From the NCBI GenBank assembly GCA_025774805.1, contig JALGZR010000012.1, positions 39,922 to 103,921 on the forward strand: a DNA stretch of 64,000 bases. The letters run 5' to 3'. The notes beneath the pieces are model-generated. The model was not told the origin of the DNA, did no database searches, and saw nothing but the letters and a program-made list of their open reading frames with translations. Positions 6,672 to 36,343 of this stretch are shown piece by piece. This DNA comes from a bacterium. GTDB taxonomy: Bacteria > ARS69. Positions within the stretch are counted from its first letter, which is position 1. Each line of letters opens with the position of its first letter. Position numbers and translations under genes: made by a program.

Positions 6672-8480
6672 ATGCCCGCCCTCGACAAGACCGTCCTCAT
6701 TCTGGGAGGCGCCGGCCTCGTCGGAATCCAGTGCGCGAAGAAGATCTCGCGCACCCTTCGTCCGAAACGCGTCGTGATCGCCTCCCTCTTCCGCAAGGAG
6801 ACGCGCGAGGCCGTGACCGTTCTGCGCCGGGAGTTCCCGTACGTCGACTACGCCGGTTACTTCGGGAACTTGTTCGTCCGCGGAGAGCCGACTCCGATCG
6901 AGAGGCGAGTCCCCGAGCCGTCGCCGCGCGAGTTCCTCGAAAGGCCGGAGAACCGGCACGCCGTCTTCGAGGACATATTCCAGGACTTCGAGACGGCGTA
7001 CCGCGAATCGTTTCTCGTGCGCCTGCTTCTGCGCGAGGAGCCCGACGCCGTCGTGGACACCGTCAACACCGCCACCGGCATCAGCTACCAGGACATCTTC
7101 TCGAGCTCCTTCGTCGTGTCCCGGGGTCTCGAGGAGACGAGGTCCCGGAAGGAGGCGATCTCGGAGGGGTTCGCCGTCGATCTGGAGAAGCACCTCGTCT
7201 CCGCGGCGGTGCCCCAGCTCATCTCCCACGTGCGCCTTCTCCACCGGGCGTTGACCGAGATCGGGTGCCGTATCTACCTGAAGGTCGGAACGACCGGAAC
7301 GGGCGGAATGGGACTCAATGTTCCCTACACCCACGGCGAGGACAAGCCGAGTCGCACCCTCATGGCGAAGACCGCGACCGCGTTCGCCCACTCCGGTCTC
7401 CTCTTCCTCATGGCGCGCACGCCGGAATGTCCGATCATCAAGGAGATCAAGCCGGCGGCGATGATCGGGTACCGCGAGATCGGTTTCACGCCGGTCCGCG
7501 GCGTGCAGTACCGACCGATGAAGGGGACGGGGAAGGGCGGCGAGAGGGTGAAGCTCGTTCCCGGGGAGCCCTACGCGCTCTTCGAGTGTCGTGAGCAGAA
7601 GCTCACGGATAGCCTCGACAACGAGCCGACGTTCGACGGGTTCGAGCCCCGGCGCGGTGAGGACGGAAAGCCGGCGAAGCTCGTACTCCCCTGCGTCAAC
7701 ACGGGGGAGAACGGCATCTTCACGAAGGGCGAGTTCGAGGCGATCACCTCCCTCGCCCAGATGGAGTTCGTGACCCCCGAGGAGATCGCCGATCTCGTGA
7801 CGTTGGAGCTCCAGGGCAGCAATACCGGCCGCGACGTCATCTCCGCCATCGACTCCTCGATCCTCAGCCCGTCCTACAAGGGCGGTCTCATCCGGGGTAT
7901 CGCGATCGAGGAGCTCGAGAAGCTGGAGCGGGAGAAGGGCGTCCCCTCCGTCGCCATCGGACAGCTCGGCCCGCCCCAGCTCGCCAAGTACCTGTATGAG
8001 GCACACTTTCTCCGGGAGCTCTACGGCTCGGTCGAGGGAGTGCTCACCGACGAGAACGGGACCGCGAGGAAGGCGGCCGAGATCTCCGAGGCGATGCACG
8101 AGCGGGTGACGAAGAGCCCGATCCGTCACACCATCACCTCCATCGGAATCCCGATTCTGCTTCCCGACGGGAAGACGATCCTGCGCGGCCCGGTCATCAA
8201 GATCCCGCCCTACAACAAGAAGGCCCACGTGGTCGAGCTCTCGGCACGTCGGATCGACGCGTTCGCGAAGAAGGGGTGGGTGGATCTCCGTCCCGTGCAC
8301 ATGGGCTGGTGGCTCGACAAGTTCCGAAAGATGCACAAGACCGTGTTCCGGCACGGCGCGAAGTGGAGCTCGGAGCGCCTCGACTTCCGTTCCTACCTCG
8401 CCGAGGAGATCCGGATCGGCGAGGTCGTGGCCTGGATCTTCAACAACGAGATCGAGCCCAAGGGGCACCGCATCAAGTGA
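6672..8480 (+). CDS. Large NAD(P)-binding Rossmann-fold (SDR-like) protein of unknown function
   Basis: A 602-residue cytoplasmic protein. The N-terminus has a dinucleotide-binding signature LILGGAGLVGIQCAKK (~8-24), followed by AVVDTVNTATGISYQDI (~125-141) in the position where SDR proteins bind the cofactor ribose. A Gly-rich stretch KVGTTGTGGMGLN is at ~207-219. It is twice the length of a normal short-chain dehydrogenase, and the C-terminal half (~300-602) matches no family I can name. AGGAG (GGGAGGAGACCT) precedes the ATG. Its stop overlaps the GTG start of the acyl-AMP ligase fusion, and FadD follows, so a role in oxidising or reducing an acyl or polyketide-like substrate is plausible inference only. 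Confidence 0.75.
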   Translation: MPALDKTVLILGGAGLVGIQCAKKISRTLRPKRVVIASLFRKETREAVTVLRREFPYVDYAGYFGNLFVRGEPTPIERRVPEPSPREFLERPENRHAVFEDIFQDFETAYRESFLVRLLLREEPDAVVDTVNTATGISYQDIFSSSFVVSRGLEETRSRKEAISEGFAVDLEKHLVSAAVPQLISHVRLLHRALTEIGCRIYLKVGTTGTGGMGLNVPYTHGEDKPSRTLMAKTATAFAHSGLLFLMARTPECPIIKEIKPAAMIGYREIGFTPVRGVQYRPMKGTGKGGERVKLVPGEPYALFECREQKLTDSLDNEPTFDGFEPRRGEDGKPAKLVLPCVNTGENGIFTKGEFEAITSLAQMEFVTPEEIADLVTLELQGSNTGRDVISAIDSSILSPSYKGGLIRGIAIEELEKLEREKGVPSVAIGQLGPPQLAKYLYEAHFLRELYGSVEGVLTDENGTARKAAEISEAMHERVTKSPIRHTITSIGIPILLPDGKTILRGPVIKIPPYNKKAHVVELSARRIDAFAKKGWVDLRPVHMGWWLDKFRKMHKTVFRHGAKWSSERLDFRSYLAEEIRIGEVVAWIFNNEIEPKGHRIK

Positions 8481-11400
8481 CGTCGACATCGGCCGTGAGC
8501 CCCGAGCTGTTGTCCCGAGTCCAGGACGCGTTCGCCGCCCTCGAGAGCGGGTCGCCCGCCGATCCGGCCACCGCGACGGTGACCCTGGTCCGAGCGACCC
8601 GCGAGGCGGTGAGGGCCCTGGAGCGGATGACCGCGTCGCTCACGGAGGAGACCGATTCGGACCGAGGCGACGTCCGCGCCCATCGTTCCCTGGTGCACCG
8701 GATTCTCGACGACGCCGGCCACCGGTCGGTCAGCACGGCCTTCGCAGAATCCCCGTTCGCGAAGGAGTGGACGGATCTGCTTCTCGAGGCGGTGCTCGCC
8801 TCCGACTACACGGTCGGGGACCTTTTCTTTTCGCGGGCCCGCGCCCTCGGAGATCGCACGCTGTTCCTGCTGCCCCCCGGTCGGAAGGAGGGTCGGGTCT
8901 CCTGGGTGGAGGCGGAGCGGCGGGTCGTTCGCATCGGGCGGGCGCTCCTCGCCGCCCGCGACCGGGGAGAGGTCGGACCCGAGGCCGGACCGGTCGCGAT
9001 CCTCGGACCGAACTCGCCCGAGCTCGCGCTGTTCGATCTCGCCTGTCTCGTGGTCGGGATCCCGAACGTCCCGGTGCCGGCGAACTCGCCGCCCGACCAG
9101 ATCGAGTTCATTCTCGTTCACGCGAAGGCCACCGCGCTGTTCCTCGGGGACGATGCGGCCGCCCGGGCGGCGGCGGGAGCGATCGCCGCCCGCGGGGACG
9201 CGCTGCGGGTCCACTGGATCGACGGGCGTCGCCCGGAGGCGCTTCCGGTCCGTTCGCTGGAGGAGTTCCTCGCGAAGGGAGACACCGTTCCCGAGGAGCG
9301 GGTGAGGGAGGAGGCCTTCCGAGTCCGCTCCGCCGATCTCGCGACGACGATGTACACGTCGGGAACGACCGGCGTCCCCCGGGGGATCCCGTTCACCCAG
9401 GGGAACCTCGTCACGAAGCGATTCGCGCGCGCCGCGGCCTGGCCCGATCTCGGAACGGGCGACGTCTTTCTCTGTTACCTGCCGCTCTACCACACGTTCG
9501 GTCGCTGGCTGGAGATGCTTGGCTGCGTCTTCTGGGGGGCGGTGTACGCGTTCCTCGAGGACGTCTCGCTCGAGTCCCTTCTCTACTCCTTCCAGCGCGT
9601 ACGTCCGACCGCGTTCATCAGCGTCCCGAAGAAGTGGATTCAGATCGCGGAGTCGGTCGGGCCGGGCGGCGAGGACGCTCTTGACGACGCCGCGTCCCCC
9701 GACGAGCGGGAGATCAGCCGAGAGCTCGTTCGCGTCACGGGAGGGCGGCTGCGGCGAGGTCTCTCCGCGGCGGGCTACCTCCCTCCCTGGATCTTCCGTC
9801 GCTTCCACGGCGCGGACATCGAGCTGCACTCCGGGTTCGGCATGACCGAGGCCACGGGGGGCATCACGATGACGCCGGAAGGGGACTACCGGGACGAATC
9901 GATCGGCGTGGCGCTTCCCGGTATCGAGCTGAAGGTCGCCGAGGACGGCGAGCTCTTCATCCGGGGTCCCTACGTCACCCCCGAGTCGGAGGACGAGCCC
10001 CCGCGGGTGGAGGGGTGGCTCGCGACCGGCGACATCGTTCGATCGGACGCGGAGGGGCACTACCGGATCGTCGATCGGAAGAAAGAGATCTTCAAGAACA
10101 TCCAGGGAGAGACGATCTCCCCGCGACGGATCGAGAGCCTGTTCGCCGATTTCGAGATCGTCGAACGGGTCGTCGTCATCGGAGACGATCGACCCTACTG
10201 CACGGCGCTGATCGTGCCGACCGCCGAGCTGCGGAGCGAGTTCGCGGCCGATGCGAACGCTTTCACGATCGACACGCCGGATCTCCGCGAGCGGTTCGCT
10301 CCCGTCGTGTCCAGCGTGAACGGCTTCCTGGCCCCGTACGAGCGCGTGCTCGACTTCGCCGTGCTCGCGCGGGACCTCGATCCGGATCGCGGCGAGCTCA
10401 CCGCAAAGGGCACCCCGCGCCGCAACGTGTTGGTCGACCGGTTCCGCGACGCGATCGAGCCTCTCTACTCGCGGGAGGCGGTGCAGCGAACGATCGGCGA
10501 GGTCACCGTGCGCGTCCCCCACTGGTTCTTGAGACAGACCGGCATCCCGCCGACCGAGCTGCGGGCGACCCCGGAGGGGCTCGAGGCCGGCTCCTCCGCG
10601 CGGCTGTCGATCCGCCCCGGGACGGGCGAGGGGTGCGTGATCGTGGGGGACCTGGAATACGATCCGGGCGGCGGCGAGGTGCGGCTGGGCGAGATCGTAG
10701 GACGCGCCGAGCTCTGGTTGGGGAACGACATGGTGCGACGCTTCGCGGGACCGGGCATCGACCACTGGTGGCGCCGCGGCCCCCGCCTCGACGTACGCAC
10801 TCGACTGGTGAGCCGGCTCGTCGCCGGGGCAGCTCCGCCCGAGGACCCGAGCCGGAGAACGGAGCTTCCCCCCCGCGAGCCCTCGGGCTCCCCCGTCGAT
10901 CTCGCGAACCTCCACGCGTGGGTCCGGGGACTGTCCTCCCCCGATCCGGACGTTCGAAGGGAGACCGTGGAGGCTCTGCGAAAGGACCTCACGGGGGAGA
11001 ACCCCGAGCGCGACTCCCTGGTCCGTCGCGTGCTCCGTTCCGGACTCTCCGACACCCCCATTCGCCCCCACTGCCTGCGCGCGATCATCCCCGGCCTGGC
11101 GCCGGAAGAGCTGGACCGGGCGATCGAAGAGGGAATCGCCGACCCGACGTTTCTATCGGAGGATGAGATCCGGATCGCGGCCGAGTCTCCCCTGCGCGGG
11201 GATCAGCTCGACTACCTGATGCACCGGATCCGGGACTCCGCTCCCGCCGACGAGGAGAAGCGGTGGCCCGAACGGATGCCGGGGCTGCTCCGCCGGCTGC
11301 GTTTCCTCGTGGAGCTGGCGATTCGACATCGCGCGAATCTCCTACGGGTTCGCTCTCTCCTCGCGGATCTGATCGCCCGATCCCGCGACCCCGGTCGGAC

Positions 11401-13276
11401 CGAGGAGCTGGAGACGCTGTTCTCCCGACTCGAGTGCGGATTCCTGGAGAGACTGCCCGAGACCCAGGTCGCTCCCGGGGTGCCGTGGAGGGGGGCGGTG
11501 TTCTTCCGGGGCGAGGTGGAGGAGAACCACCAGGATCGCATCCTCGACGCGATCTCCCGCACGAAGCTCCTGGCGGAGGCGCTCGCCCTGCTCGGTGCGA
11601 CCCCGCCCCGGAGTCCCCTCCTCCTGTCTTCCCGATCGGTGCGCATCTCGCGGCTCGCTCCGAGCCGCGGTCGTACCGTCTACCTGCTCGCGTGGTCCCC
11701 CGCCGGCCTGGACCGCACCGCTCCCCGCTTCGAGTGCGTCCTGAAGGTGAACGAGAGCCTCGACTGGGAGAAGATCCGGGAGGAGCGGCGTCTTCTCGTA
11801 CGCATGCGGACGGGGGGCACCGGGCGTCCGGTCGTGAAGGCCCAGGGCGGGGCCTACCCCGAGCAGGGTCTCTGGACCGAGGAGTACATTCCGGGGCCGA
11901 CCCTCGATCGACTCGTGGAGGACCTCGTCCGGGAGGAGGACGAACGCACCACCGGCCGCCTACCCGAGCTCTGGCAGTTCCTGGTTTCGTCGTGCGCTTC
12001 CCTCGTGGTCGATGCCTGGAGGCGAACGGGGAGCACGCAGACGCTCGCGAACCCCTCGCCGCGCATGGTCGTGCTTCCTCCCCGCGACTGGCAGGTGGGG
12101 GGACGGCTCGTCTCCGTCGCGAACCGCAAGCGGTGCGAGCGTCTGATCGACGTGCTCGAGTCGGTTCGCCAGGGCATCATCCGCCCGCTGCACGAGCGGT
12201 TCGGATCGGCGGGACTCGAGTCCGAACGGCGGCTTCTTCTCTCCGGCGCCCTCGAGGCGATCGGCGAGGAGGAGGGCCTCGCAATCCTCGAGAGGGAGGC
12301 CCCCCCCGACTCGGCGGCCTCCCGATTCGTCTCGTCCGTCCGCCGGCGCGGGTTCCTTCCGGTCCACATCCGAATCGCCGCGCGCCGTTACCGCCGGTGG
12401 TGCCACCTCAACGCGGACGCCACCCTGCAGGCCCAGGCCGCGACACTCGACCAGGTCGCCGCGGCCTACGGACTCGGCGAGCTCGACGTGGAACGGCCCG
12501 GCTCCCGACTGCAGTTCTACCGCCACACGGTGTTCCGGGGAACGGACGATCGTTTCATGCGGGCGTTCGACGCGATCATCGCCGACACCCTCGCGCGCTC
12601 CGCGACGGGGGACCGCCCTCCCCGAGGCGCGGCGACCTCCGGCCCCCCCGGACGATGGCACCGAGAGCTCGCCGATCTCCGGGAGCGCTTCCCTCTGACC
12701 GATCGACAGGAGTTCTTCCTCGCCCAGACGCTCTACCCCCACGTCGATCCGGAGGGAAAGGCCATGCTCGTGCGCGAGCGGGCCGAGGGTGCAGGACACG
12801 GCACGGGAATGGAGGTCACGTATCAGGACGCGGAGGGTGAGGAGTTCCGCATTCACCCCCCGCGCAATCCGAACGAGGTCGGCGCCCTCTCCCGTGTGTT
12901 CCGCGCCGCCAATTTCCGCCGGGTCCCGTCCGCAGAACAGGACGAGCTGCTCGTGGTGACCCAGGCGCAGGGGCGGGTGATCGGCGGACTCATCTTCCAC
13001 CGCCCGAGCGCGACGTATGCTCACCTCGAGTGGCTCGTGGTGAGCCGGCACCGAAGGGGACGCGGCATCGGGGCCGTGCTGCTGAGGGAGTTCCTCGACC
13101 GCGTCAAGGCGCAGGGGGTCCTGGCCGTCTCCACCGGGTTCTTCCATCGGCAGTTCTTCGCGAGGTTCGATTTCGTGATCGATCCTCGCTATGCGGGTCA
13201 AGTGCGGATCCTCGGCGGAGAGGAGACGGGAGATCCCACCGCGCCCGATTCAGGGGACGTGACGGAAATCCGATAG
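8477..13276 (+). CDS. 1599-residue fusion: acyl-AMP ligase, middle kinase-like region, C-terminal GNAT acetyltransferase
   Basis: N-terminal ANL-superfamily adenylation domain (~100-690): ATP motif YTSGTTGVPRG (Y293), GFGMTEATGG, GWLATGDIV and the hinge/A8 region VDRKKEIFKNIQGE, closest in style to long-chain acyl-CoA synthetases. An alpha-helical linker (~800-1000) resembles HEAT-like helices. At ~1080-1200 a segment resembles the N-lobe of kinase/phosphotransferase folds (CVLKV with K1090, then EEYIPGPTL), but a clear catalytic loop is not recognisable. A GNAT acetyltransferase (~1440-1599) carries the acetyl-CoA loop RRGRGIG (R1526-G1532). The GTG start at 8477 overlaps the upstream stop (GTGA); a GTG at 8495 is an alternative. 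Presumed to activate a fatty acid and acylate or acetylate a target. The order of domains is seen; substrate and target are unknown. Confidence 0.85.
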   Translation: MTSTSAVSPELLSRVQDAFAALESGSPADPATATVTLVRATREAVRALERMTASLTEETDSDRGDVRAHRSLVHRILDDAGHRSVSTAFAESPFAKEWTDLLLEAVLASDYTVGDLFFSRARALGDRTLFLLPPGRKEGRVSWVEAERRVVRIGRALLAARDRGEVGPEAGPVAILGPNSPELALFDLACLVVGIPNVPVPANSPPDQIEFILVHAKATALFLGDDAAARAAAGAIAARGDALRVHWIDGRRPEALPVRSLEEFLAKGDTVPEERVREEAFRVRSADLATTMYTSGTTGVPRGIPFTQGNLVTKRFARAAAWPDLGTGDVFLCYLPLYHTFGRWLEMLGCVFWGAVYAFLEDVSLESLLYSFQRVRPTAFISVPKKWIQIAESVGPGGEDALDDAASPDEREISRELVRVTGGRLRRGLSAAGYLPPWIFRRFHGADIELHSGFGMTEATGGITMTPEGDYRDESIGVALPGIELKVAEDGELFIRGPYVTPESEDEPPRVEGWLATGDIVRSDAEGHYRIVDRKKEIFKNIQGETISPRRIESLFADFEIVERVVVIGDDRPYCTALIVPTAELRSEFAADANAFTIDTPDLRERFAPVVSSVNGFLAPYERVLDFAVLARDLDPDRGELTAKGTPRRNVLVDRFRDAIEPLYSREAVQRTIGEVTVRVPHWFLRQTGIPPTELRATPEGLEAGSSARLSIRPGTGEGCVIVGDLEYDPGGGEVRLGEIVGRAELWLGNDMVRRFAGPGIDHWWRRGPRLDVRTRLVSRLVAGAAPPEDPSRRTELPPREPSGSPVDLANLHAWVRGLSSPDPDVRRETVEALRKDLTGENPERDSLVRRVLRSGLSDTPIRPHCLRAIIPGLAPEELDRAIEEGIADPTFLSEDEIRIAAESPLRGDQLDYLMHRIRDSAPADEEKRWPERMPGLLRRLRFLVELAIRHRANLLRVRSLLADLIARSRDPGRTEELETLFSRLECGFLERLPETQVAPGVPWRGAVFFRGEVEENHQDRILDAISRTKLLAEALALLGATPPRSPLLLSSRSVRISRLAPSRGRTVYLLAWSPAGLDRTAPRFECVLKVNESLDWEKIREERRLLVRMRTGGTGRPVVKAQGGAYPEQGLWTEEYIPGPTLDRLVEDLVREEDERTTGRLPELWQFLVSSCASLVVDAWRRTGSTQTLANPSPRMVVLPPRDWQVGGRLVSVANRKRCERLIDVLESVRQGIIRPLHERFGSAGLESERRLLLSGALEAIGEEEGLAILEREAPPDSAASRFVSSVRRRGFLPVHIRIAARRYRRWCHLNADATLQAQAATLDQVAAAYGLGELDVERPGSRLQFYRHTVFRGTDDRFMRAFDAIIADTLARSATGDRPPRGAATSGPPGRWHRELADLRERFPLTDRQEFFLAQTLYPHVDPEGKAMLVRERAEGAGHGTGMEVTYQDAEGEEFRIHPPRNPNEVGALSRVFRAANFRRVPSAEQDELLVVTQAQGRVIGGLIFHRPSATYAHLEWLVVSRHRRGRGIGAVLLREFLDRVKAQGVLAVSTGFFHRQFFARFDFVIDPRYAGQVRILGGEETGDPTAPDSGDVTEIR

Positions 13277-13317: not shown

Positions 13318-15021
13318 ATGGACCGCAAATCTTGGCACGAAGCTTACGAACCGGGGGTGCCCCCCTCTCTCGAGTACGAGGAGATCACCCTTCCGGCCAT
13401 GCTACGCCGGTCGGCCGGGTCGCACCCGGACGCGGCGGCCGTCCGGTTCATGAACCGGACGATGACGTATCGTCAGCTCGTGGAGGACGTCGATCGCTTC
13501 GCAGCCGGACTCGCATCGCTCGGAGTGACTCCGGGGGCACGGGTGGCGATCCACCTACCGAACCTGCCCCAGACGGTCATCTCCGTTCACGCGGCGCTCT
13601 CCCTGGGTGCCGTGCCGGTGATGACGAACCCGCTCTACGTGTCCCGCGAGATCGAGCAGCAGTGGAACGACGCCGGGTGCGTCGTCGCGGTGACCACGGA
13701 CTTCCTGTTCACGAGTCGGGTCGCGCCGATCCGATCCCGACTTCCCGTGCGCGAGTACGTCATCGCGTCGATCCCCGAGTATCTCCGCTTTCCCCTGCGG
13801 CTCTTGGCCCCTTGGAAGCTGCGGAGATCCGATCCTCCCCTCATCGCCAACGTGCCGGACCAGAGATCGGTCCACCGATTCCGACTCCTGCGGGGGGCGC
13901 CGTCCGGCACCCGATCCCACCCTCCGCCCGCTCTCGACGATCTGGCGATCCTCCAGTACACGGGAGGAACGACGGGGGTCGCGAAAGCGGCGATGCTCAC
14001 CCATCGGAACCTGTCTTTCCAGGTCCAGCAGCTGAGGGCCTGGCTTCCCGGACTCGTGCCCGGAGGAGAGGTCTTCCTCGGCGCGCTCCCGTTCTTCCAC
14101 GTGTTCGGGCTCACCGTGGCGCTGAACCTGCCCGTCGCGCTCGCGGCCGAGATGGTGTTGATCCCCAACCCGAGGGACATCCCCCGGTTGATCTCGAGCA
14201 TCAATCGCTACGGTGTTTCGATCTTCCCGACCGTGCCCGCCATGATCGACGGGATCAACCGGAGCCCCAAGGTCGGCTCGCTGAAGGTCGGCACGTTGAA
14301 GATGTGCGTCTCGGGCTCCGCCCCCATGCCCGAGAGCACCCTCCGCCGCTTCGAGGAGCGCACCGGCGGGAAGATCGTCGAGGGTTACGGCCTCACCGAG
14401 ACGTCCCCGGTCACCCACGTCAATCCGCAGAACGGCGTCCGCAAGGTCAACACGATCGGTCTGCCCCTGCCCGACACCGATTGCCGGATCGTGTCGCTCG
14501 AAGACGGGGTCAGCGAGTTGCCGGCGGGCGGAGAGGGGGAGCTCTACATCCGGGGACCGCAGGTGATGGCCGGCTACTGGAATCGTCCCGACGAGACCGA
14601 GCGCGTGTTGCGGGACGGGTGGCTGCGCACCGGCGATCTCGCCGCGCGCGACGAAGAGGGGTACTTCCGGATCTGCGGCCGCAAGAAGGACATGATCCTC
14701 GCGAGCGGGTACAACATCTACCCGGACGAGGTGGACCAAGTCCTCTCTTCCCACCCGGCCGTGCTCGAGTGCGCGACCATCGGCGTTCCGGACGAGAGGC
14801 GCGGGGAGACGGTGAAGTCCTTCGTCGTTCTCCGATCGGATCGTGAGGCGACCTCCGACGACCTCCGGGAACACTGCCGCGCGAATCTCGCCGTCTTCAA
14901 GGTTCCCCGGGAGATCGAGTTCCGGGACGAGCTGCCCAAGAGCAGCGTGTTGAAGGTCCTCCGGCGGGAGCTGCTGGTGCAGGAGCTGCGGGCTAGAGGG
15001 TTACCTGAACCAGGGCCATGA
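13318..15021 (+). CDS. fadD: Long-chain fatty acid-CoA ligase (FadD-type)
   Basis: A 567-residue acyl-CoA synthetase that adenylates a fatty acid and transfers it to CoA. Motifs in order: ATP loop YTGGTTGVAKAAMLTH (~213-228), FFHVFGLT, GYGLTETSPVTH (~360-371), GWLRTGDLAARDEEGYFRICGRKKDMI (A7/A8 hinge), and the C-terminal lysine region LPKSSVLKVLRREL, where the K aligned with the catalytic acyl-adenylate lysine is visible. The ATG at 13318 has only a weak GGGGTGG ribosome-binding region. It is third in the operon after the Rossmann protein and the ligase fusion, giving two acyl-activating enzymes side by side. Its 3' end overlaps the convergent ZIP transporter gene by 29 bases. Confidence 0.9.
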   Translation: MDRKSWHEAYEPGVPPSLEYEEITLPAMLRRSAGSHPDAAAVRFMNRTMTYRQLVEDVDRFAAGLASLGVTPGARVAIHLPNLPQTVISVHAALSLGAVPVMTNPLYVSREIEQQWNDAGCVVAVTTDFLFTSRVAPIRSRLPVREYVIASIPEYLRFPLRLLAPWKLRRSDPPLIANVPDQRSVHRFRLLRGAPSGTRSHPPPALDDLAILQYTGGTTGVAKAAMLTHRNLSFQVQQLRAWLPGLVPGGEVFLGALPFFHVFGLTVALNLPVALAAEMVLIPNPRDIPRLISSINRYGVSIFPTVPAMIDGINRSPKVGSLKVGTLKMCVSGSAPMPESTLRRFEERTGGKIVEGYGLTETSPVTHVNPQNGVRKVNTIGLPLPDTDCRIVSLEDGVSELPAGGEGELYIRGPQVMAGYWNRPDETERVLRDGWLRTGDLAARDEEGYFRICGRKKDMILASGYNIYPDEVDQVLSSHPAVLECATIGVPDERRGETVKSFVVLRSDREATSDDLREHCRANLAVFKVPREIEFRDELPKSSVLKVLRRELLVQELRARGLPEPGP

Positions 15022-16202: not shown

Positions 16203-18521
16203 ATGTCCAGACTACTTCCCTTCGCGCTCCTGGTACTCCCTCTCATCTTCCCGTTCCCGTCCGGCGCCACCGGCTTCCAGGCCGGCTCCCTCCAGGAGGG
16301 GTATCGGGTGGAAGTGCTGGCTTCCGGCCCCGAGAGGACGGTCCTCCGATTCCAGGTGGGCCAGTTCGACCTGAGCCCCGTGGAGATCGACGGCGGGGAG
16401 TGGTCGATCGTCGACTGGAAGGGCGGCGCGGCGGGGCTAGAGCGGGGCCTTCCGTCCCTTCCCGCGTTCCACGAGTCGATCGTCCTGCCGGACGACGCCC
16501 GCATGGAGCTCCGGGTGCTGTCGGCGGAGTTCCAGGACTTCCAGGGCGTCCGGATCGCTCCCTCCAAGGGCCTGTTCACGCGGGACATCCTGCCGTCGGA
16601 CGTCCCGTACGAGTTCTCCGAATTCTACAACGGGAACGACTGGTATCCCGCAGAGCTGGCGTCCCTCGGAGCGCCCTACATCCTGCGGGACGTGCGCGGC
16701 GCCGTCACCTCGGTGAACGCGTTCCAGTGGAACCCGGCATTGGAGACGCTTCGCGTCTATACCCGCGTGGACGTCGAGATCCGGGCCGCGGGACCGGGTG
16801 AGATCAACGTGCTCACCCATCGCCCCGACCGGCGGGTCCGCGAGTTCGAGGAGATCTACGCGCGGCACTTCCTGAACTACGGGGGCGGCCTCCGCTACTC
16901 GCCGGTAGTCGAGGCGGGCACCGTGCTCGTGATCGCCTACGACTCGTTCGCCCCCGCGACTCAGCCTCTGGTGGACTGGAAGAACGAGATGGGCCTGCCC
17001 ACTCGGCTGGCGCTGAAGTCCGAGGTCGGGACCACGGCAAACGACTTCAAGGCCTACATCCAGGACGCCTACGACAACGAGGGGGTCTGCTACATCATCC
17101 TCGTGGGAGACGCCGCCCAAATCCCGTACTTCTTGAACGACGGCGGCGCCGCCGATCCGATGATGACGCTTCTCGCGGGAGGGGACAGCTACCCGGACGC
17201 CTTCATCGGTCGCATCTCGGCCGAGACGCCGAGTCAGGTCGAGACGCAGGTGGAGCGGATCGTCGAATACGAGCGGGATCCCGACCCCGCCGGCACGTGG
17301 TACTCCAAGGGGATCGCGATCGCGTCGAACGAGGGAGCCGGCATCGGAGACGATGGAGAAGCGGACTGGCAGCACGCCCGGAACTATCGGGCGGACCTCC
17401 TCGCGTTCACCTACACGACGGTCGACGAGCTGTACGACGGTTCGCACGGGGGCGATCCCACGGGCAACGGAGGAGGCGGCGATGCCGCTGGCAATCCGAC
17501 CCCGTCCATGGTCGCGGATCGGGTCAATGCGGGCCGGAGCTTCATCGGCTACACCGGCCACGGATCCTCGTCGGCCTGGTCGACCTCCGGATTTTCGAGC
17601 GCCAACGTCAATGCCCTGGTCAACGACAACCAGCTTCCGGCGATCATCAGCGTGGCCTGCGTGAACGGACTGTTCACGAGCGGGACCTGCTTCGCGGAGG
17701 CGTGGCTCCGCGCCACCCACTCCGGGGAGCCCACGGGAGCGGTGGCCTGCTACATGTCGACGGTGAATCAGGGCTGGGCGCCACCGATGCGCGCGCAGGA
17801 CGAGTTGGTCGACCTCCTCTGCGGCGAGGCGATGCGAACCTGGGGCGGGCTCTGCTTCAACGGCTCCTGCGACATGATCGACCACTACGGCTCGGCCGGC
17901 ATCTCCGAGTTCAAGAACTGGACGATCTTCGGGGATCCGAGCCTGCAGATGCGCACGGCCACTCCCCTGCCCCTCGCCGTCAGCCACTCGGGAACGGTGG
18001 ATCCCGCGGCGGGCGAGTTCGAGGTCACGACGGAGCCCGGGGCCCTTGCCGCGCTCAGTGACGAGGGCGTGCTCATCGGCTCGGCGTACGCCGACGAGCT
18101 CGGCATCGCGCTCATCATGTTCGACCCGCAGGACATGGCCGGTCGATCCGAGGTCACGCTCACGGTCACCGCGTTCAACTGCGTGCCGAACTCGAGCACG
18201 GTTCCGGTGGGAACGAGCACGACGTCCGTGCCGGCGGTGGCGGGTGTCGTGTCGCTCGAGCAGAACCTCCCCAACCCCTTCGCCCGATCGACCCGAATCG
18301 CGTTCTCCATTGCGGGCGACGCGGCCGTTCGGCTCGAGATCTACGACGTGGCCGGCCGCCGCGTCCGGACTCTGGAGAACGGACTCCTTCCGGCCGGAAT
18401 CCACGACGTGACGTGGGACGGCACCGACGACGCCGGTCACCGGCTGGCGGCGGGCAGCTACTTCTACCGTCTCGTTACGAACGAGAGAGTGGAGACGAAA
18501 CGGATGGTGCGTCTCCGCTGA
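16203..18521 (+). CDS. Secreted C25-family (gingipain-like) cysteine protease with C-terminal FlgD-like sorting-type domain
   Basis: A 772-residue exported protease. Signal peptide ~1-25. A C25 propeptide-like region (~30-230) precedes a catalytic domain (~235-590) with the His in GYTGHGSSSAW (H453) and the nucleophile in ISVACVNG (C486), the spacing expected for caspase-like gingipains. VGDAAQIPYF and ENWTIFGDPSL-type elements (FKNWTIFGDPSLQM) are also family hallmarks. The last ~85 residues (LEQNLPNPFA, RLEIYDVAGRRVR, WDGTDDAGHRLAAGSYFYRL, ending RMVRLR) match the FlgD-Ig/type-IX-secretion-like C-terminal domains. The ATG at 16203 follows GAGGACGG; a TATGCT -10-like box is at 16140. A strong hairpin follows the stop. 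No secretion-machinery gene is seen in the window. Confidence 0.9.
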   Translation: MSRLLPFALLVLPLIFPFPSGATGFQAGSLQEGYRVEVLASGPERTVLRFQVGQFDLSPVEIDGGEWSIVDWKGGAAGLERGLPSLPAFHESIVLPDDARMELRVLSAEFQDFQGVRIAPSKGLFTRDILPSDVPYEFSEFYNGNDWYPAELASLGAPYILRDVRGAVTSVNAFQWNPALETLRVYTRVDVEIRAAGPGEINVLTHRPDRRVREFEEIYARHFLNYGGGLRYSPVVEAGTVLVIAYDSFAPATQPLVDWKNEMGLPTRLALKSEVGTTANDFKAYIQDAYDNEGVCYIILVGDAAQIPYFLNDGGAADPMMTLLAGGDSYPDAFIGRISAETPSQVETQVERIVEYERDPDPAGTWYSKGIAIASNEGAGIGDDGEADWQHARNYRADLLAFTYTTVDELYDGSHGGDPTGNGGGGDAAGNPTPSMVADRVNAGRSFIGYTGHGSSSAWSTSGFSSANVNALVNDNQLPAIISVACVNGLFTSGTCFAEAWLRATHSGEPTGAVACYMSTVNQGWAPPMRAQDELVDLLCGEAMRTWGGLCFNGSCDMIDHYGSAGISEFKNWTIFGDPSLQMRTATPLPLAVSHSGTVDPAAGEFEVTTEPGALAALSDEGVLIGSAYADELGIALIMFDPQDMAGRSEVTLTVTAFNCVPNSSTVPVGTSTTSVPAVAGVVSLEQNLPNPFARSTRIAFSIAGDAAVRLEIYDVAGRRVRTLENGLLPAGIHDVTWDGTDDAGHRLAAGSYFYRLVTNERVETKRMVRLR

Positions 18522-29982: not shown

Positions 29983-31791
29983 GTGGGCGAGGTGCGCGAT
30001 CGGAGCTCCGCCTGGAGGGTTCTCGCGCTCCTGGGGCTGGTCCTCGCCGCCCACTCTCCCGCGCTCCGCGCGGACTTCCTCTGGGACGACGAGTTCTGGC
30101 TCTGGAACAGCCCGTTGACACAGGCCGGCGACGGACTGCTCCGCGCCTGGTACTCCGGGGACCGCTGGGACTTCTACCCGATCACTTCCTCGGTGTTCTG
30201 GGTGATGTGGCGGATCGCGGGAAACGGGGCGGCGGGCTATCACCTGCTCAATCTCGCATTGCACGGTCTGGGCGCCGTTCTTCTCTGGCGGGTCTTTCGA
30301 GAGTTGCGCTTGCCGGCGGCCTGGCTGACCGCCGCCGTCTTCGTCGTGCATCCCGTGACGGTGGGGACCGTCGCGTGGATCACGCAGCTCAAGAACACGC
30401 TGTCGCTCGCGTTCTACGCGCTCGCCATCCTAGCGTATCTCCGCTTCGACCGGGAGCCCGTTCCCGACCGGACCCGGTGGTACGCAGGGGCACTCCTCGC
30501 ATTCGTGGCGGCCCTGCTGTGCAAGGCCTCCGTGGTCATGCTCCCCGTGGTGCTGTTGCTCTTGATCCACTGGCGGCGCGGGCGTCTCGGGAAGGGCGAT
30601 CTCGTGCCGCTCGTGCCCATCTTCGCTCTGTCCGCCGCGTCGGCCGCGGTGACGATCGCCTTCCAGAGCCGGAGGGCGTTCGGGGGAGCCGCGGAGATGA
30701 CCGAGAGCTTCGCGACGCGCCTCGCGGCGGCGGGGCGGTGCGTCGACTTCTACGCTCTCAAGGCGGTCCTGCCGACCGATCTGGCGATCATCTATCCGCG
30801 CTGGGAGGTGGATGCGGTCTCCGTCACGGCATGGTTGCCGCTGTTTCTCCTCGGAGCCGTCTTCTGCGTGGCGGTGTTGCTGCGAGGGGGGGCCGGAAGA
30901 GCACTTCGGACCGGGCTCGGCGCTTACGTCGCGACGCTCTTCCCCGTCCTCGGTTTCTTCGCCATGTACTATACGCGGTACTCGCGCGTGGCCGATCACT
31001 GGCAGTATCACGCGCTTCCCGCGGCCCTCGCGCTCGGGATCGGCGCGGGGGCCGTTCTGCTCCGCCGGGCGGGCGCGCTCCTTCCGCGAATCGTCGGAGC
31101 GATCCTGATCCTGGCGCTCGGCGCCCAGACGTTCCGGCAGTCCCGGGTCTACGAGAACGAGGGCACGTTCTGGAGCGCCGTGCTCGAGCGGAATCCCGCC
31201 GCGTGGGTCGCGTGGAACGGCCAGGGCACCTGGCTCGGACGGCAGGGCGACCACGAGGAGGCGCGCCGTCACTTCGAGCGGGCGGTCGAGTTGAACCCCG
31301 AGTACGCGCTCGGATGGAACAACCTCGGGAAGGCCCACGAGCGCACCGGGGACCTCGAGCGCGCCGAGGACGCCTTCCGTCGTGCCATCCGGGTCCGCCC
31401 GGATCTCGCGGAGGCGGTGAGCAATCTCGGCTCCCTCCTCGCGCGCCGGGGGGAGCTCGACGAGGGAATCGATCGGATGCGGGAAGCGGTGCGTCTCGCC
31501 CCGCTTGAACCGGGTTTTCACTTTCGTCTGGCTCTGGCCCAGGCCCAACGCGGGGATCCCGCCGCCGCCGCCGAGGATCTCCGGGCGGTCGTCCGTCTCG
31601 CGCCCGACGACATCGAGGCGCGCTACCTGCTCGCCAAGACTCTCGTGCAGACGGGGAACCTGCGGGAGGCGCGGATCCAGCTCCTCGAGGTCGTCCACCG
31701 CGATCCCGGATACGACGGTGGCGCGGCTCAGCAGGCGTTGCAGGCGGTGCGGAAGGCTCGGCCCGGGGAGGGGCGGAGCACGGGGGAGTGA
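29983..31791 (+). CDS. Polytopic membrane protein with C-terminal TPR repeats (TMTC/PMT-type glycosyltransferase-like)
   Basis: A 602-residue inner-membrane protein. About ten membrane helices occupy ~10-400, with FLWDDEFWLWNSP at ~27-39 resembling the DD motif loop of GT-C glycosyltransferases (Asp pair after the first helix), and HPVTVGTVAWITQLKNTLSLAFY matching the TMTC/O-GlcNAc-like DUF family. From ~410 there are five TPR units (AWVAWNGQGTWLGRQGDHEEARRHFERAVELNPE, ALGWNNLGKAHERTGDLERAEDAF and so on). This architecture is common in delta-proteobacteria and Planctomycetes. GTG at 29983 follows GGAAGGGA; GTG at 29992 is possible. Acceptor and donor unknown. Confidence 0.82.
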   Translation: MGEVRDRSSAWRVLALLGLVLAAHSPALRADFLWDDEFWLWNSPLTQAGDGLLRAWYSGDRWDFYPITSSVFWVMWRIAGNGAAGYHLLNLALHGLGAVLLWRVFRELRLPAAWLTAAVFVVHPVTVGTVAWITQLKNTLSLAFYALAILAYLRFDREPVPDRTRWYAGALLAFVAALLCKASVVMLPVVLLLLIHWRRGRLGKGDLVPLVPIFALSAASAAVTIAFQSRRAFGGAAEMTESFATRLAAAGRCVDFYALKAVLPTDLAIIYPRWEVDAVSVTAWLPLFLLGAVFCVAVLLRGGAGRALRTGLGAYVATLFPVLGFFAMYYTRYSRVADHWQYHALPAALALGIGAGAVLLRRAGALLPRIVGAILILALGAQTFRQSRVYENEGTFWSAVLERNPAAWVAWNGQGTWLGRQGDHEEARRHFERAVELNPEYALGWNNLGKAHERTGDLERAEDAFRRAIRVRPDLAEAVSNLGSLLARRGELDEGIDRMREAVRLAPLEPGFHFRLALAQAQRGDPAAAAEDLRAVVRLAPDDIEARYLLAKTLVQTGNLREARIQLLEVVHRDPGYDGGAAQQALQAVRKARPGEGRSTGE

Positions 31792-32099
31792 AGGGAGGCG
31801 CGTACCGGGACGACAACCCGGCGGCCTCGGTCCAGGGAAGCACCACGCGATGGGCCTCCCGGACGAAGAAGCGTGTGCACTCTTCCCACCGGAACGGCGC
31901 CAGCGTCGCGGGCTCCGGCTCTTCCTCGGCGTCCGCGAAATACGTCAGGCTTCCGCGGCCGGACACCGCCACCAGCTTCATCAAGGCCATGCCGGTGGGA
32001 ACGGCTACGCGGAAGGATCGGTACGGAGGAGTCGGCGGTCTCTACGACCTCCAGAAAGGCTCGGCATCCGTCCGGGAGAACCTCTTCGCTCCGGGCCAT
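31792..32099 (-). pseudogene. Possible frameshifted small gene (minus strand)
   Basis: Two adjacent minus-strand frames read as plausible protein only if joined. One begins at 32099 (MARSEEVLPDGCRAFLEVVE). The other continues from about 32030 (YRSFRVAVPTGMALMKLVAVSG, then LTYFADAEEEPEPATLAPFRW) to about 31792. Third codon positions are GC-rich in both. A TAG interrupts the second frame upstream, so a shift near 32000-32035 is needed. The reverse strand shares the same GC3 register and is also open, so this may be a shadow. No family recognised. Nothing else is visible in 31792-32146. Confidence 0.3.
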
Positions 32100-32146
32100 C
32101 TTGGACGATTCGGAACTCTGGAGGTGGGTGGGCCCGCCCCCGCCAA

Positions 32147-32176
32147 TTGACGTCGGAACCTCCCCCTTTCTATGAT
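32147..32176 (+). promoter_or_regulatory. Sigma70-like promoter of the large C25 protease gene
   Basis: TTGACG (32147-32152), an 18-base spacer, TATGAT (32171-32176): the best sigma70 match in the window. The start of transcription would be near 32183, excluding the in-frame GTG at 32183 and supporting the ATG at 32237. Confidence 0.6.
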
Positions 32177-32236
32177 CGTCCCGTGATCAGGATATTCCCG
32201 TCCGAGCCCCAACGCCCCTCCCGGTGGCTCTCCCTC

Positions 32237-35200
32237 ATGAAGCGCATCCGCGCGTCGGACCGTCAGGAACTCGGCATCCTCCCTCCGCCGTCGCCCCGAA
32301 AGAAGTCGCTTCCGCGCGCCTCGACCTTGTGCGCCGCGCTCGTCTGCGCGTTTCTTGCGGTTGGGCAACCGGCGCGGGCGGGGATTCACGTCCGTGAGTC
32401 GGATGATCGGCACGTCATCCTGGAGATCATTCCCGACGGGCTTCGCACCGAACGGGTCCTGACCGAGGAGCGGGAGTACATCCGGGTGGTGGGCGAGGGG
32501 GTGGGCCTCACCGACGAAACCGGTTTACCCGAGCTGCCCGTCGGCAGCGTGCCGATCGGCGTCCCGTTCGGGGCGATCCCCCGCTTGCGCGTTCTCAGCG
32601 CCCGGTGGTCCTCTCCCCGTCCGGGAGCGATCGTCCCCGTCCCCGATCGGTACGGGATCCGGCCCCCGTTCGGACCGTCGCGCGTCGTGGAGAGGGAGCC
32701 GGTCGAGGGCAGTCTCTACCGGTCGCGCACGACCCATCCGGAAGCCCCCTTCGAGCTCTCCCCGGTGCGCCGCCTGCGCGGACTCTCCGTCGTTCACGTG
32801 ATCTGGTACGCCGCGACGACGGAGGTGTTCGCGCGCACGCACCGGGTCCTCGAGCGCGCCGTCCTCGAGATCCTCTTCGAAACGGACGGACGCGACGGTC
32901 CCGGGCTGCGCGCGGCCCGGCGGCCGGAGCGCGTCGGACGCCACTGGGAGCGCACCTACCGGGGAGCAGTGGTCAACGCGACCCGCGCGGTCGCATGGGC
33001 GCGGAGCTGCCCCGGGGACGGCGCGGCGGTCGGCGACACGCCCTGGGGAGGGGGCACGCAATGGAAGATCCGCGTGTCCGAAACGGGAATCACCGAGATT
33101 CCGTTCTCGACGCTGAACGGGGCCCGGTTTCCGCCGGGAATCCCCGTCGAGAACGTCTCTCTCTACCAGCGCGACTTCCGGCTCGACCTCGTCGACGCGG
33201 ACACCGTCTCGGCGCCCCAGCTCTTCGAGCGCTCGGACGTCCCGATCGACCTTCGCGATCGCAACGGGAACGGGACATTCGACGCCGGGGACGGGATCGT
33301 TTTCTGGGGTCGCTCGGTGCGGGATCAGTGGATGACCTCGGGGTGGGAGTGCGAGGATCGTCACGACGCCCTGAACGCGTATTGGGTGCGGATCGATCCC
33401 GGGGGGCAGGCGCTCCGGATGGCCGTTCCCCGACCGGGTGGGAGCCTTTCCGGGAACCCCGCCGACTCCCTCGACTCGACGCCTTCCCGGATCTTCCGGG
33501 AGGAGGACGTCCAGATCTACGCGCGCCCTCCCGACTACGGCCCCGGGGGCAGGGCCTTCGAGAACGAGTTCTACTACCGAAACGGCCCGACGGCGGACGT
33601 CGATCCCGTCGACGGCTGGTGGTTCGACGACGCCTTTACGACTCACGATCCCGTCCCCGGCCGGCCGGCGAAGCTCCTGTCCCGTGTGGCGGGAGGGGGA
33701 CTTCCCGTCGACGGGTCGTACACGAATCGAATCCGGTTTCTCGTCAACGGAGCGCAGATCGGGGCGGACCGCGTCTTCCGGAACTTCGCCGTCACGACCC
33801 CGGGCGCGGTTCTGAACGAGCATCCGATCCCTCCCGACCTCCTCGAGAACGGCCTCGACGCGAACCTCTTCCGCTTCGTGGGGTGGACGTACCACCCGAT
33901 CACCGGTGATCCGGTGCGCGTGGCCCGGTTCTTCTTCGACTGGTACGAGATCACGTACGACCGGGCGCTCGTGGCCCGCGACGACCGCCTCGTTCTCTCG
34001 ACCGCCTACGACTCGACCGGCAACGTTCTCGTCCGGGTGCGGGGATTCACCGGCGACCAGCTCCGGCTCTACGACGTGACCGACGCCGACTCGACCCGCG
34101 CGCTGGACGTGGCCGGCTCTCAGGTGATCCCCACGGGCGGGACCTGGGATCTCCGCTTCGATCATGATCACGACGCTCCCGGCGCGGGAGGGGCCCGCAC
34201 GTTCGTCGCCGTCCGGGACGAGGCGATCCCGAAGGTGCCGGCCTCTCGGGTGCTCCGGGTCGGCGCGCCGACGATTCTCGCCGGAGGTCAGGGAGCCCGA
34301 TACGTCGTCGTGGCGCACGATGCCCTGATGGGCAAGGCGCGTGAGTTCGCCGCACTCCGGTCGAAGCGGTACACCACGCGATCCGCTCCCGTCTCCGAGG
34401 TGTACGACGTCTTCGGAAACGGACGCATTCACCCCGACGCGATCAAGGCGTACACCGCGTACGCGTTCCACCGCTGGGCCGACCCCATCGTCTTCCTCTG
34501 TCTGATCGGCGACGCGAGTGAGGATCACCGGGGCGTGACCGCAAACTCGGACCCCGATCTCGTTCCGAGCCACAGCCTCTTCGGCGACTACGAGGGAGCC
34601 GCCGAGGGGTCGGACCAGTACTACGCCGAAGTGACACGGGAGGATTCGGGCGCCTTCGACGACCTGCCGGATCTCTACGTCGGCCGCATCGCCGTCAACA
34701 CTCTCGACGAGCTCGACTGGAATCTCCGGCGCGTCATGGAATACGAGTCACACTGGCGCGGCTCCGATCCGAAATGGCGCCATCGCGTGATCTTCATGGC
34801 CGACGATGCTTTCAGTGGCACGCTCAGCGAGACCATCGGCCAGGGGGCGTACGGGTGGCGCCCCGGCGAGCTCCTCTTCGAGGACACGTCGGAGTACTAC
34901 GCCGAGGAGGTCACCGCGCATCCTCTCGACAGCTACCACGCCCGGCGGGTCTATCTCTCCGAGTTCACTCATCCCTGTGCCGACTCGTGCTACGAGAGCC
35001 ACAGCCGCAACTGCGAAGAGGACCTCGGCATCGACTGCGGGATCTGGTACGACTGCCGGAACCCGGCCAATTGGCAGGCGGAGTACTTCTGCCTGCGCAC
35101 GACGCTCCGTCCTCTCGCTCTGTCCCGTATCCTCGAGTACGTGAACGACGGCGCCCTGATCTGGAACTTCCAGGGACACGGCCACCGGTCGTTGATGACG

Positions 35201-36343
35201 CACGAGGAGGCCTTCCGGGACGATCGGTTCAGCGGTTATCGCGACGTGGATGCTTTCCGGAACGAGGGTAAACCGCTCCTTTTCGTCGCGTTCGCTTGTC
35301 ACCTGGGGGAGTTCGATCGCGCGGACGAGGGTCGGAACGAGGATTGCCTCAGCGAGAAGATGATGAACCACCGGCCGACTGGAACGCAGGAGCCGGGAGG
35401 CGCGATCGCCTGCTTCGTGAGCTCGGGTTTCGAGTTCCTCAACCCGAACCGCTCGTTCAACCTCTACGTGCTGCAGGCCTTCTTCTATCCGGAGATCGCC
35501 GCCGATTCGACGGAGCTCGCGATCGGCGCCTCCCTTCCCGACAACTCTTTCGGAGGCGCCTACGGGTGGACGCTCGGCGAGTCGACGACCCGGGCCCGGC
35601 TCATGTTCCAGCGTCGGTATCCGCTGCCGGGTCAGTTCCGCCGGGCCTCGCAGCGCTTCGTTCTGCTCGGGGATCCGGCGCTCGAGCCCGACGCGGGGCC
35701 CCCTCGCATGAAGGTGACCGTCGACGGGAACGAGGTCGAGGACTTCCGCGATCCGTACATCGTGAGCGGGAACCACCCCGAGCCCCCGAGGTACACGGTC
35801 GCGGCGACGGCGTCCGATCCGTGGGGGATCGCCGCCGTTCGCATTCGCGACACGGCTCGGGGAGAGGTCCCGGTCGCGGACTACGAGATCGAGGGGGACC
35901 TCACGACCGGGGACGGGGTCCGGCAGTCCCTCACGATGATCTACGGGATCCGGCCCCGGATCGGCGAGACGTACGACGTCGTCTTCGTGGCGGAGGACGG
36001 AAACGGCCGGACGGCCGAGTTCGTGTTCCGCGTGTCCTCCCGGTTCGAGTTCCTCGACGATCCGGTCGCCTTCCCGAACCCGTCCCGCGGGCGGGTGGTG
36101 ATCGGTTACCGGCTGACCGATCGGGCCGAGCGCGTGAGCGCCGAGATCTACACGATCACCGGACGCAGGATCGCGGAGATCGACGAGGGGGTCCGGGGAG
36201 ACAGCGTTCTGAACCGCCTGTCGTGGAACGGATTCGACGACCACGGCAACCCCGTCGCCAGCGGCACCTACCTGATCCGGATTCGCGCCCGAAGCGTGCG
36301 GGAGACGATCGAGTCGGTCGTCCCCGTGGTCCTCCTACGGTAG
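32237..36343 (+). CDS. Very large secreted C25-family cysteine protease (PorU-like in size) with C-terminal FlgD-like domain
   Basis: A 1368-residue exported protein. A long n-region precedes the hydrophobic signal core (~30-47, LCAALVCAFLAVGQPARAG). The N-terminal ~600 residues are beta-rich. The C25 domain (~680-1130) has the His in IWNFQGHGHRS (H981) and nucleophile in LFVAFACHLGEFD (C1021). VFLCLIGDASEDHRG and RFVLLGDPALEPD are C25 hallmarks. A Cys-rich insert (~910-945: HPCADSCYESHSRNC...GIDCGIWYDC) may be disulfide-linked. The final ~90 residues (AFPNPSRGRVVIGYRL, AEIYTITGRRIAEI, WNGFDDHGNPVASGTYLIRI) form a FlgD-like domain. Length and layout recall PorU, the type IX sortase, but having its own sorting-type tail makes an ordinary secreted protease as likely. 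Confidence 0.87.
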   Translation: MKRIRASDRQELGILPPPSPRKKSLPRASTLCAALVCAFLAVGQPARAGIHVRESDDRHVILEIIPDGLRTERVLTEEREYIRVVGEGVGLTDETGLPELPVGSVPIGVPFGAIPRLRVLSARWSSPRPGAIVPVPDRYGIRPPFGPSRVVEREPVEGSLYRSRTTHPEAPFELSPVRRLRGLSVVHVIWYAATTEVFARTHRVLERAVLEILFETDGRDGPGLRAARRPERVGRHWERTYRGAVVNATRAVAWARSCPGDGAAVGDTPWGGGTQWKIRVSETGITEIPFSTLNGARFPPGIPVENVSLYQRDFRLDLVDADTVSAPQLFERSDVPIDLRDRNGNGTFDAGDGIVFWGRSVRDQWMTSGWECEDRHDALNAYWVRIDPGGQALRMAVPRPGGSLSGNPADSLDSTPSRIFREEDVQIYARPPDYGPGGRAFENEFYYRNGPTADVDPVDGWWFDDAFTTHDPVPGRPAKLLSRVAGGGLPVDGSYTNRIRFLVNGAQIGADRVFRNFAVTTPGAVLNEHPIPPDLLENGLDANLFRFVGWTYHPITGDPVRVARFFFDWYEITYDRALVARDDRLVLSTAYDSTGNVLVRVRGFTGDQLRLYDVTDADSTRALDVAGSQVIPTGGTWDLRFDHDHDAPGAGGARTFVAVRDEAIPKVPASRVLRVGAPTILAGGQGARYVVVAHDALMGKAREFAALRSKRYTTRSAPVSEVYDVFGNGRIHPDAIKAYTAYAFHRWADPIVFLCLIGDASEDHRGVTANSDPDLVPSHSLFGDYEGAAEGSDQYYAEVTREDSGAFDDLPDLYVGRIAVNTLDELDWNLRRVMEYESHWRGSDPKWRHRVIFMADDAFSGTLSETIGQGAYGWRPGELLFEDTSEYYAEEVTAHPLDSYHARRVYLSEFTHPCADSCYESHSRNCEEDLGIDCGIWYDCRNPANWQAEYFCLRTTLRPLALSRILEYVNDGALIWNFQGHGHRSLMTHEEAFRDDRFSGYRDVDAFRNEGKPLLFVAFACHLGEFDRADEGRNEDCLSEKMMNHRPTGTQEPGGAIACFVSSGFEFLNPNRSFNLYVLQAFFYPEIAADSTELAIGASLPDNSFGGAYGWTLGESTTRARLMFQRRYPLPGQFRRASQRFVLLGDPALEPDAGPPRMKVTVDGNEVEDFRDPYIVSGNHPEPPRYTVAATASDPWGIAAVRIRDTARGEVPVADYEIEGDLTTGDGVRQSLTMIYGIRPRIGETYDVVFVAEDGNGRTAEFVFRVSSRFEFLDDPVAFPNPSRGRVVIGYRLTDRAERVSAEIYTITGRRIAEIDEGVRGDSVLNRLSWNGFDDHGNPVASGTYLIRIRARSVRETIESVVPVVLLR

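Follow-up and report, generated by a model that had tools for sequence, protein, structure and literature searches.

A conserved fusion of AMP-forming synthetase, kinase-like and GNAT domains in a single bacterial chain, a candidate N-acyltransferase

A gene that starts as an acid-activating enzyme and ends as a GNAT raises the questions of whether such a chain is a real protein and what it could do. In the window, by which we mean the whole 64,000-nucleotide stretch of bacterial DNA analyzed here, positions 8477 to 13276 of the forward strand give a stop-free translation of 1599 residues (the fusion protein P0001). Its start codon is GTG, and the GTGA is shared with the TGA of the preceding gene in a 4-nt overlap. 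The initial annotation had proposed a chain running from an adenylation domain through a helical and a phosphotransferase-like part to a GNAT. This order was recovered, with Pfam matches at both ends and predicted folds in the middle, and it reads AMP-forming synthetase, beta domain, HEAT-like helices, putative pseudokinase and GNAT.

Recurrence of the fusion

P0001 is present in a single copy in the window's genome, and a homologue was found in all four sister genomes of the window's family (50-55% identity). Outside this family the same order was seen in G010, G106, G297, G112 and G452, in family f162 and in the group of the Deltaproteobacteria MAG ADurb.Bin207, where the MAG itself (locus L017) and four further genomes drawn from its group carry the fusion, with some of the loci interrupted at contig ends. 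The fusion of G060 is truncated by its contig end. At least 24 genomes of f162 have the fusion, with one copy in each matching genome and 34-37% identity to P0001, and in the most distant set the identity is 27-30%. The groups of the window, G010, G106, G112 and G182 were handled as separate phyla. Our survey of the architecture across phyla shows that it recurs in at least six deeply separated bacterial groups, a count better put as five to six because the group of the MAG may overlap that of G182. Occurrence is sporadic: the fusion was found in 9 of 290 broadly drawn genomes and, within the last group, in 5 of 282. A contig scan with a single sequence as query gave one relative. The tree of the fusion joins long branches and was used neither for dating nor for transfer between lineages.

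Synthetase, middle and GNAT were found jointly and in the same order in every complete open frame (21/21, the window included). Since the entire order recurs in all of these frames at 28-55% identity, a chance or assembly artefact is ruled out and the fusion is real. The parts are never separated in these frames and no free-standing copies of the middle were seen among the matches, which together argue that they work as a unit. A longer open frame was observed for the fusion of G587 (L116:3942-9074, reverse strand), with 1710 residues from the first start codon. PADLOC models gave no match for P0001, for the product of the preceding gene (P0002) or for two homologues.

A constrained synthetase, a kinase-like fold and a GNAT

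The chain opens with an N-terminal extension (residues 1-108, positions 8477 to 8800) that is its least conserved part, with 12-24% identity to distant homologues as compared to 37-47% for the synthetase. Pfam then places AMP-binding (PF00501, E 3.8e-54) at residues 120-501 (8834 to 9979) and AMP-binding_C_3 (PF23562, E 2.6e-12) at residues 542-667 (10100 to 10477), and the only families of Pfam and NCBIfam that match the synthetase part are those of AMP-forming synthetases. Its nearest relatives in the PDB are adenylation domains of carboxylic acid reductases, followed by luciferases and coumarate ligases, and over residues 95-670 the sequence is closest to FadD11-type acyl-CoA synthetases and to the adenylation domain of carboxylic acid reductase (5mso, 5msp). 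P0001 differs from carboxylic acid reductase in the apparent spacing of A10 and in being without the carrier-protein and reductase domains; neither Pfam nor the layout of the AlphaFold2 model gave a carrier-protein domain in P0001.

In the alignment of 33 members the residues T294, S295, G296, T298 and G299 of A3, T457 and E458 of A5, D519 of A7 and R534, K536, K540 and G544 of A8 (just before AMP-binding_C_3) are invariant, and this includes members that are just 37-41% identical across the synthetase domain. As these residues are identical even in divergent members, adenylation is under selection, and the sequence indicates that the adenylation domain is under strong catalytic constraint. 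The A10 loop, inside AMP-binding_C_3, has the motif ELTxKx(T/S)xxR, with K644 present in 33 of 33 members and a T or S at 646. We take K644 to lie two residues before the place that the A10 lysine usually has in long-chain synthetases, where a T or S stands instead. A profile alignment of the synthetase with carboxylic acid reductase was compatible with either A10 register. With an A10 lysine that may sit two residues off the usual register, the adenylation step could be weakened or changed. The initial claim that all core motifs are present thus stands for A3, A5, A7 and A8, and for A10 it needs the qualification that the lysine is there at an apparently unusual spacing.

The apparently shifted lysine also fits a reading in which the synthetase is a sensor only, that is a regulatory binding module as in type I and II acetyltransferases, and the GNAT is the sole working enzyme. 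NDP-forming synthetase domains act in this way in Pat and PatZ (PMC8556138). However, the A3, A5, A7 and A8 residues are invariant in all 33 members, unlike those of the dead type I and II domains, and we consider this reading improbable.

For the region from about residue 680 to 1460, profile searches gave no Pfam or NCBIfam family apart from a weak HEAT_2, and the sequence profiles of the PDB likewise gave no family. Residues 672-1592 were modelled by AlphaFold2 with 29 homologues (pLDDT 83.7, pTM 0.74). About 400 helical residues had been claimed to follow the adenylation domain, but the first ~110 were predicted to form a small beta-rich domain (residues 672-780, positions 10490 to 10816; model residues 1-108, pLDDT mostly 84-92), for which there was no Pfam or NCBIfam family. 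The helical part of the claim holds for the ~180 residues that come next, modelled as HEAT/ARM-like helical repeats (residues 809-992, positions 10901 to 11452; helices within model residues 138-321) and given weak HEAT_2 matches for 4 of the 29 members, at best with E 0.0037.

The list from VIA-align for the whole middle was filled by GNATs, and for this reason the kinase-like domain was folded alone (residues 994-1382, pLDDT 90.3, pTM 0.87). The 50 best rows from Foldseek and VIA-align were all kinase folds, led by Bud32 (Z 12.5, 214 aligned residues, rmsd 4.0) and with PRPK, PsiK, Rio1, methylthioribose kinase, choline kinase and JAK2 among the further matches. The match spans model residues 20-312, equal to residues 1013-1305 of P0001 (positions 11513 to 12391), and a bilobal protein-kinase-like fold is clearly and confidently predicted for this part, so that structure prediction, in which the absence of such a fold was looked for, found it present. 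In the model CVLKV lies on the beta3 strand and EEYIPG on beta5 and the hinge of the N-lobe. The positions of the beta3 Lys, the catalytic-loop Asp, the loop Asn and the DFG Asp were taken from the alignment, with GDLSPMNIVV of L015 as guide, and P0001 has K1090, N1192, M1197 and N1216 at these places. The quartet is complete in none of the 33 members, since each position drifts, and the commonest letters are N-E-A-D or N-D-A-D. Judged by these residues, the domain is a pseudokinase. What had been called a phosphotransferase-like segment therefore keeps its predicted kinase fold and loses the catalytic residues: Bud32/PRPK, Rio1 and methylthioribose kinase have the same fold (Z 10-12.5), although their catalytic Lys/Asp/Asn set is not kept in P0001 and the identity is about 8-14%. 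An active phosphotransferase, which would give the chain three activities, agrees with the clearly kinase-like fold and with the member closest to a full quartet (G002, L011), which retains K, D and N with an E for the DFG Asp, but with the quartet complete in 0 of 33 members and drift at every position we regard such an activity as very improbable. To our knowledge, few bacterial pseudokinases have assigned roles.

A helical link (residues 1306-1425, positions 12392 to 12751, by AlphaFold2), which is among the better conserved parts outside the synthetase, connects the putative pseudokinase to the GNAT (residues 1428-1583, positions 12758 to 13225). The C-terminal GNAT of the initial annotation was confirmed by Pfam (Acetyltransf_1, PF00583, residues 1487-1550 or 1487-1567, E 1.4e-07), by a predicted GCN5-like fold and by kept residues of the CoA loop. 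The AlphaFold2 model is nearest to YhbS, GCN5 and PCAF (Z about 15-16, best 15.8), and it also matches ArgA (Z 15.0) and the GNAT of S. lividans Pat (Z 13.6). Tetrahymena GCN5 (TGCN5) was the best match of the family profile (E about 7e-09). Compared with GCN5/PCAF and YhbS, the GNAT of P0001 differs in being fused to a synthetase and a kinase-like domain. In the CoA pyrophosphate loop R1527 is found in 32 of 33 members and G1530 in all 33, and the last G/A position is often S. On reading the alignments, conservation of the GCN5 general base was not evident. The fold similarity does not separate protein from small-molecule acceptors.

Neighboring genes and what they suggest

The fusion is the second of three genes of an operon in the window's family. 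The gene before it (positions 6672 to 8480, forward strand) encodes P0002, an atypical NAD(P)-binding Rossmann protein of 602 residues with a GGAGLVG motif and no Pfam or NCBIfam family. The gene after it (13318 to 15021, forward strand) starts about 41 nt past the fusion stop and encodes a stand-alone long-chain fatty-acid--CoA ligase (PF00501 7.3e-91, PF13193 6.6e-20, NCBIfam long-chain ligases) that carries PKSSVLK. The three genes are contiguous in G000, G002 and G004, and G001 and G003 are consistent with this given their contig ends. Further along the forward strand of the window, positions 16203 to 18521 encode a C25 (gingipain-type) protease. It has a propeptide and, at its C-terminus, a sorting-type domain like FlgD/CHU_C, an arrangement that suggests type IX-like secretion in the window's organism. 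Another very long open frame (1612 residues, coding-like base composition) lies at positions 31505 to 36343 of the same strand.

A second AMP-forming ligase directly downstream brings in the possibility that the GNAT acetylates lysines of the fused ligase or of the operon ligase using ordinary acetyl-CoA, as Pat and AcuA do in trans, so that the two activities would be linked by regulation and not by acyl transfer. Acetylation of AMP-forming ligases by GNATs is a common control in bacteria (PMC11619455, PMC8556138), exerted through the active-site lysine (PMC8556138, PMC11255334, PMC4053389), and in the fused ligase the A10 loop contains an invariant lysine. Bacillus AcuA and its target AcsA are, like the ends of P0001, a GNAT and an AMP-forming synthetase that are functional partners (PMC11255334), although they are separate proteins and P0001 is one chain. 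However, targets of Pat are marked by a PX4GK motif, in place of which the downstream ligase shows PKSSVLK, and outside the window's family the ligase partner is absent, with a homocitrate-synthase-like gene or none in its place. We regard an autoregulated or regulating synthetase of this kind as less likely than not.

P0002 is 72-76% identical within the family and exceeds its operon partners in conservation, and in the unrelated lineage of G587 a 43% identical homologue lies downstream of the fusion with a gap of about 0.8 kb (a trypsin-like peptidase gene is found two genes 3' of that homologue). Such coupling could indicate that the chain is a small-molecule N-acyl synthase, in which the GNAT would link the activated acid to a polyamine or an amino acid, with P0002 reducing or oxidizing the product; the match of the GNAT fold to ArgA (Z 15.0) is in line with this. 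The arguments against it are that P0001 has no carrier protein, that the biosynthetic gene set is not constant and that HEAT repeats and a pseudokinase would be unusual for such synthases. Moreover, homologues of P0002 (18 of 290 broadly drawn genomes) are usually found away from the fusion, and in several genomes they adjoin the housekeeping genes scpA, scpB and cmk, surroundings that make the neighborhood of P0002 an untelling clue to function. We find this reading rather unlikely.

In f162 the next gene 3' of the fusion, overlapping it or within about 20 nt as read from the joints, is homocitrate-synthase-like (TIGR02146, 455 bits vs. a cut-off of 413.55). This was so in all loci with enough flank (L056-L062, L068, L069 and L114) and likewise in G686. 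A role of the fusion in lysine synthesis via alpha-aminoadipate, which this partner had suggested, found no support, as LysX was never above its cut-off in 9 genomes. Perhaps the partner is another acetyl-CoA condensing enzyme. A citrate synthase gene lies immediately upstream in L060.

The neighborhoods of the other lineages gave no common partner gene. In G010 a gene for HgcA, the corrinoid protein of mercury methylation (L015:12257-13309, reverse strand; NF040863, 447 bits vs. a cut-off of 275), precedes the fusion on its strand. The gene just before the fusion in G106 (L064:4329-8156, forward strand) encodes a protein of 1275 residues whose transketolase-type domains are confined to the C-terminal half.

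A possible self-supplied N-acyltransferase

Bacterial GNAT protein acetyltransferases have been sorted into five types in a 2021 review, in which types I and II have a catalytically inactive NDP-forming synthetase (PMC8556138). What distinguishes the types is the module joined to the GNAT, and an AMP-forming synthetase occurs in none of them (PMC8556138). Type I Pat of Salmonella and PatZ/YfiQ of E. coli resemble P0001 in being large chains with an N-terminal domain of acyl-CoA-synthetase type and a C-terminal GNAT. Their synthetase, however, is NDP-forming and dead (PMC8556138), whereas that of P0001 is AMP-forming with invariant motifs, so that P0001 does not have the NDP-forming feature that defines types I and II, and it has HEAT-like repeats and a pseudokinase-like domain beyond what they contain. 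In the open-access literature searched, no chain combining an AMP-forming synthetase with a pseudokinase and a GNAT was found. In line with the initial remark that no enzyme of this order had been described, no characterized family of the same architecture was met there, and the fusion is real, conserved and, within that literature, undescribed, built from domains of known kinds.

Our preferred reading, to which we give a probability of roughly 0.4, is that P0001 is a self-supplied N-acyltransferase, with proteins as the probable acceptors. Because the synthetase is constrained and the three parts are constantly joined, we argue for an enzyme that passes an acyl or acetyl group to an amine; the fusion is a conserved machine that probably generates an acyl donor and then joins it to an amine. 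The synthetase would adenylate a carboxylic acid, as its invariant motifs suggest, and convert it to acyl-CoA, a CoA thioester being the expected donor since a carrier-protein domain was not found. The GNAT, with R1527 and G1530 kept and with profile and fold nearest to GCN5-type enzymes, could then acylate an amine with that acyl-CoA or with acetyl-CoA, and the HEAT and pseudokinase parts could serve to bind a protein substrate or to regulate both active sites. HEAT repeats and pseudokinases alike typically serve in protein binding or control, and the gene is tightly coupled to one for a metabolic enzyme, which is a long-chain acyl-CoA ligase in the window's family and homocitrate-synthase-like in f162. 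For these reasons a protein lysine, e.g. on a co-transcribed metabolic enzyme, is the favored acceptor. Perhaps the acceptors are the neighboring metabolic enzymes, though no single target is indicated since the operon partners vary by lineage and are absent in some.

A bolder and more doubtful form of this proposal is that the synthetase is active and makes a specific acyl-CoA in cis while the pseudokinase and HEAT parts choose the protein target, which would make P0001 a new class of N-acyltransferase. If true, protein acylation by this class would be driven by ATP, acyl-specific and independent of the acetyl-CoA level of the cell. Family f162 includes complete genomes in a single contig, so its hosts are probably cultivable, and the single-copy occurrence of the fusion in such genomes makes it amenable to testing. 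The scheme of bacterial protein acylation would gain a type from a conserved chain in which acid activation is combined with a pseudokinase and a GNAT, and possibly also a route of acylation that runs on ATP and a free acid.
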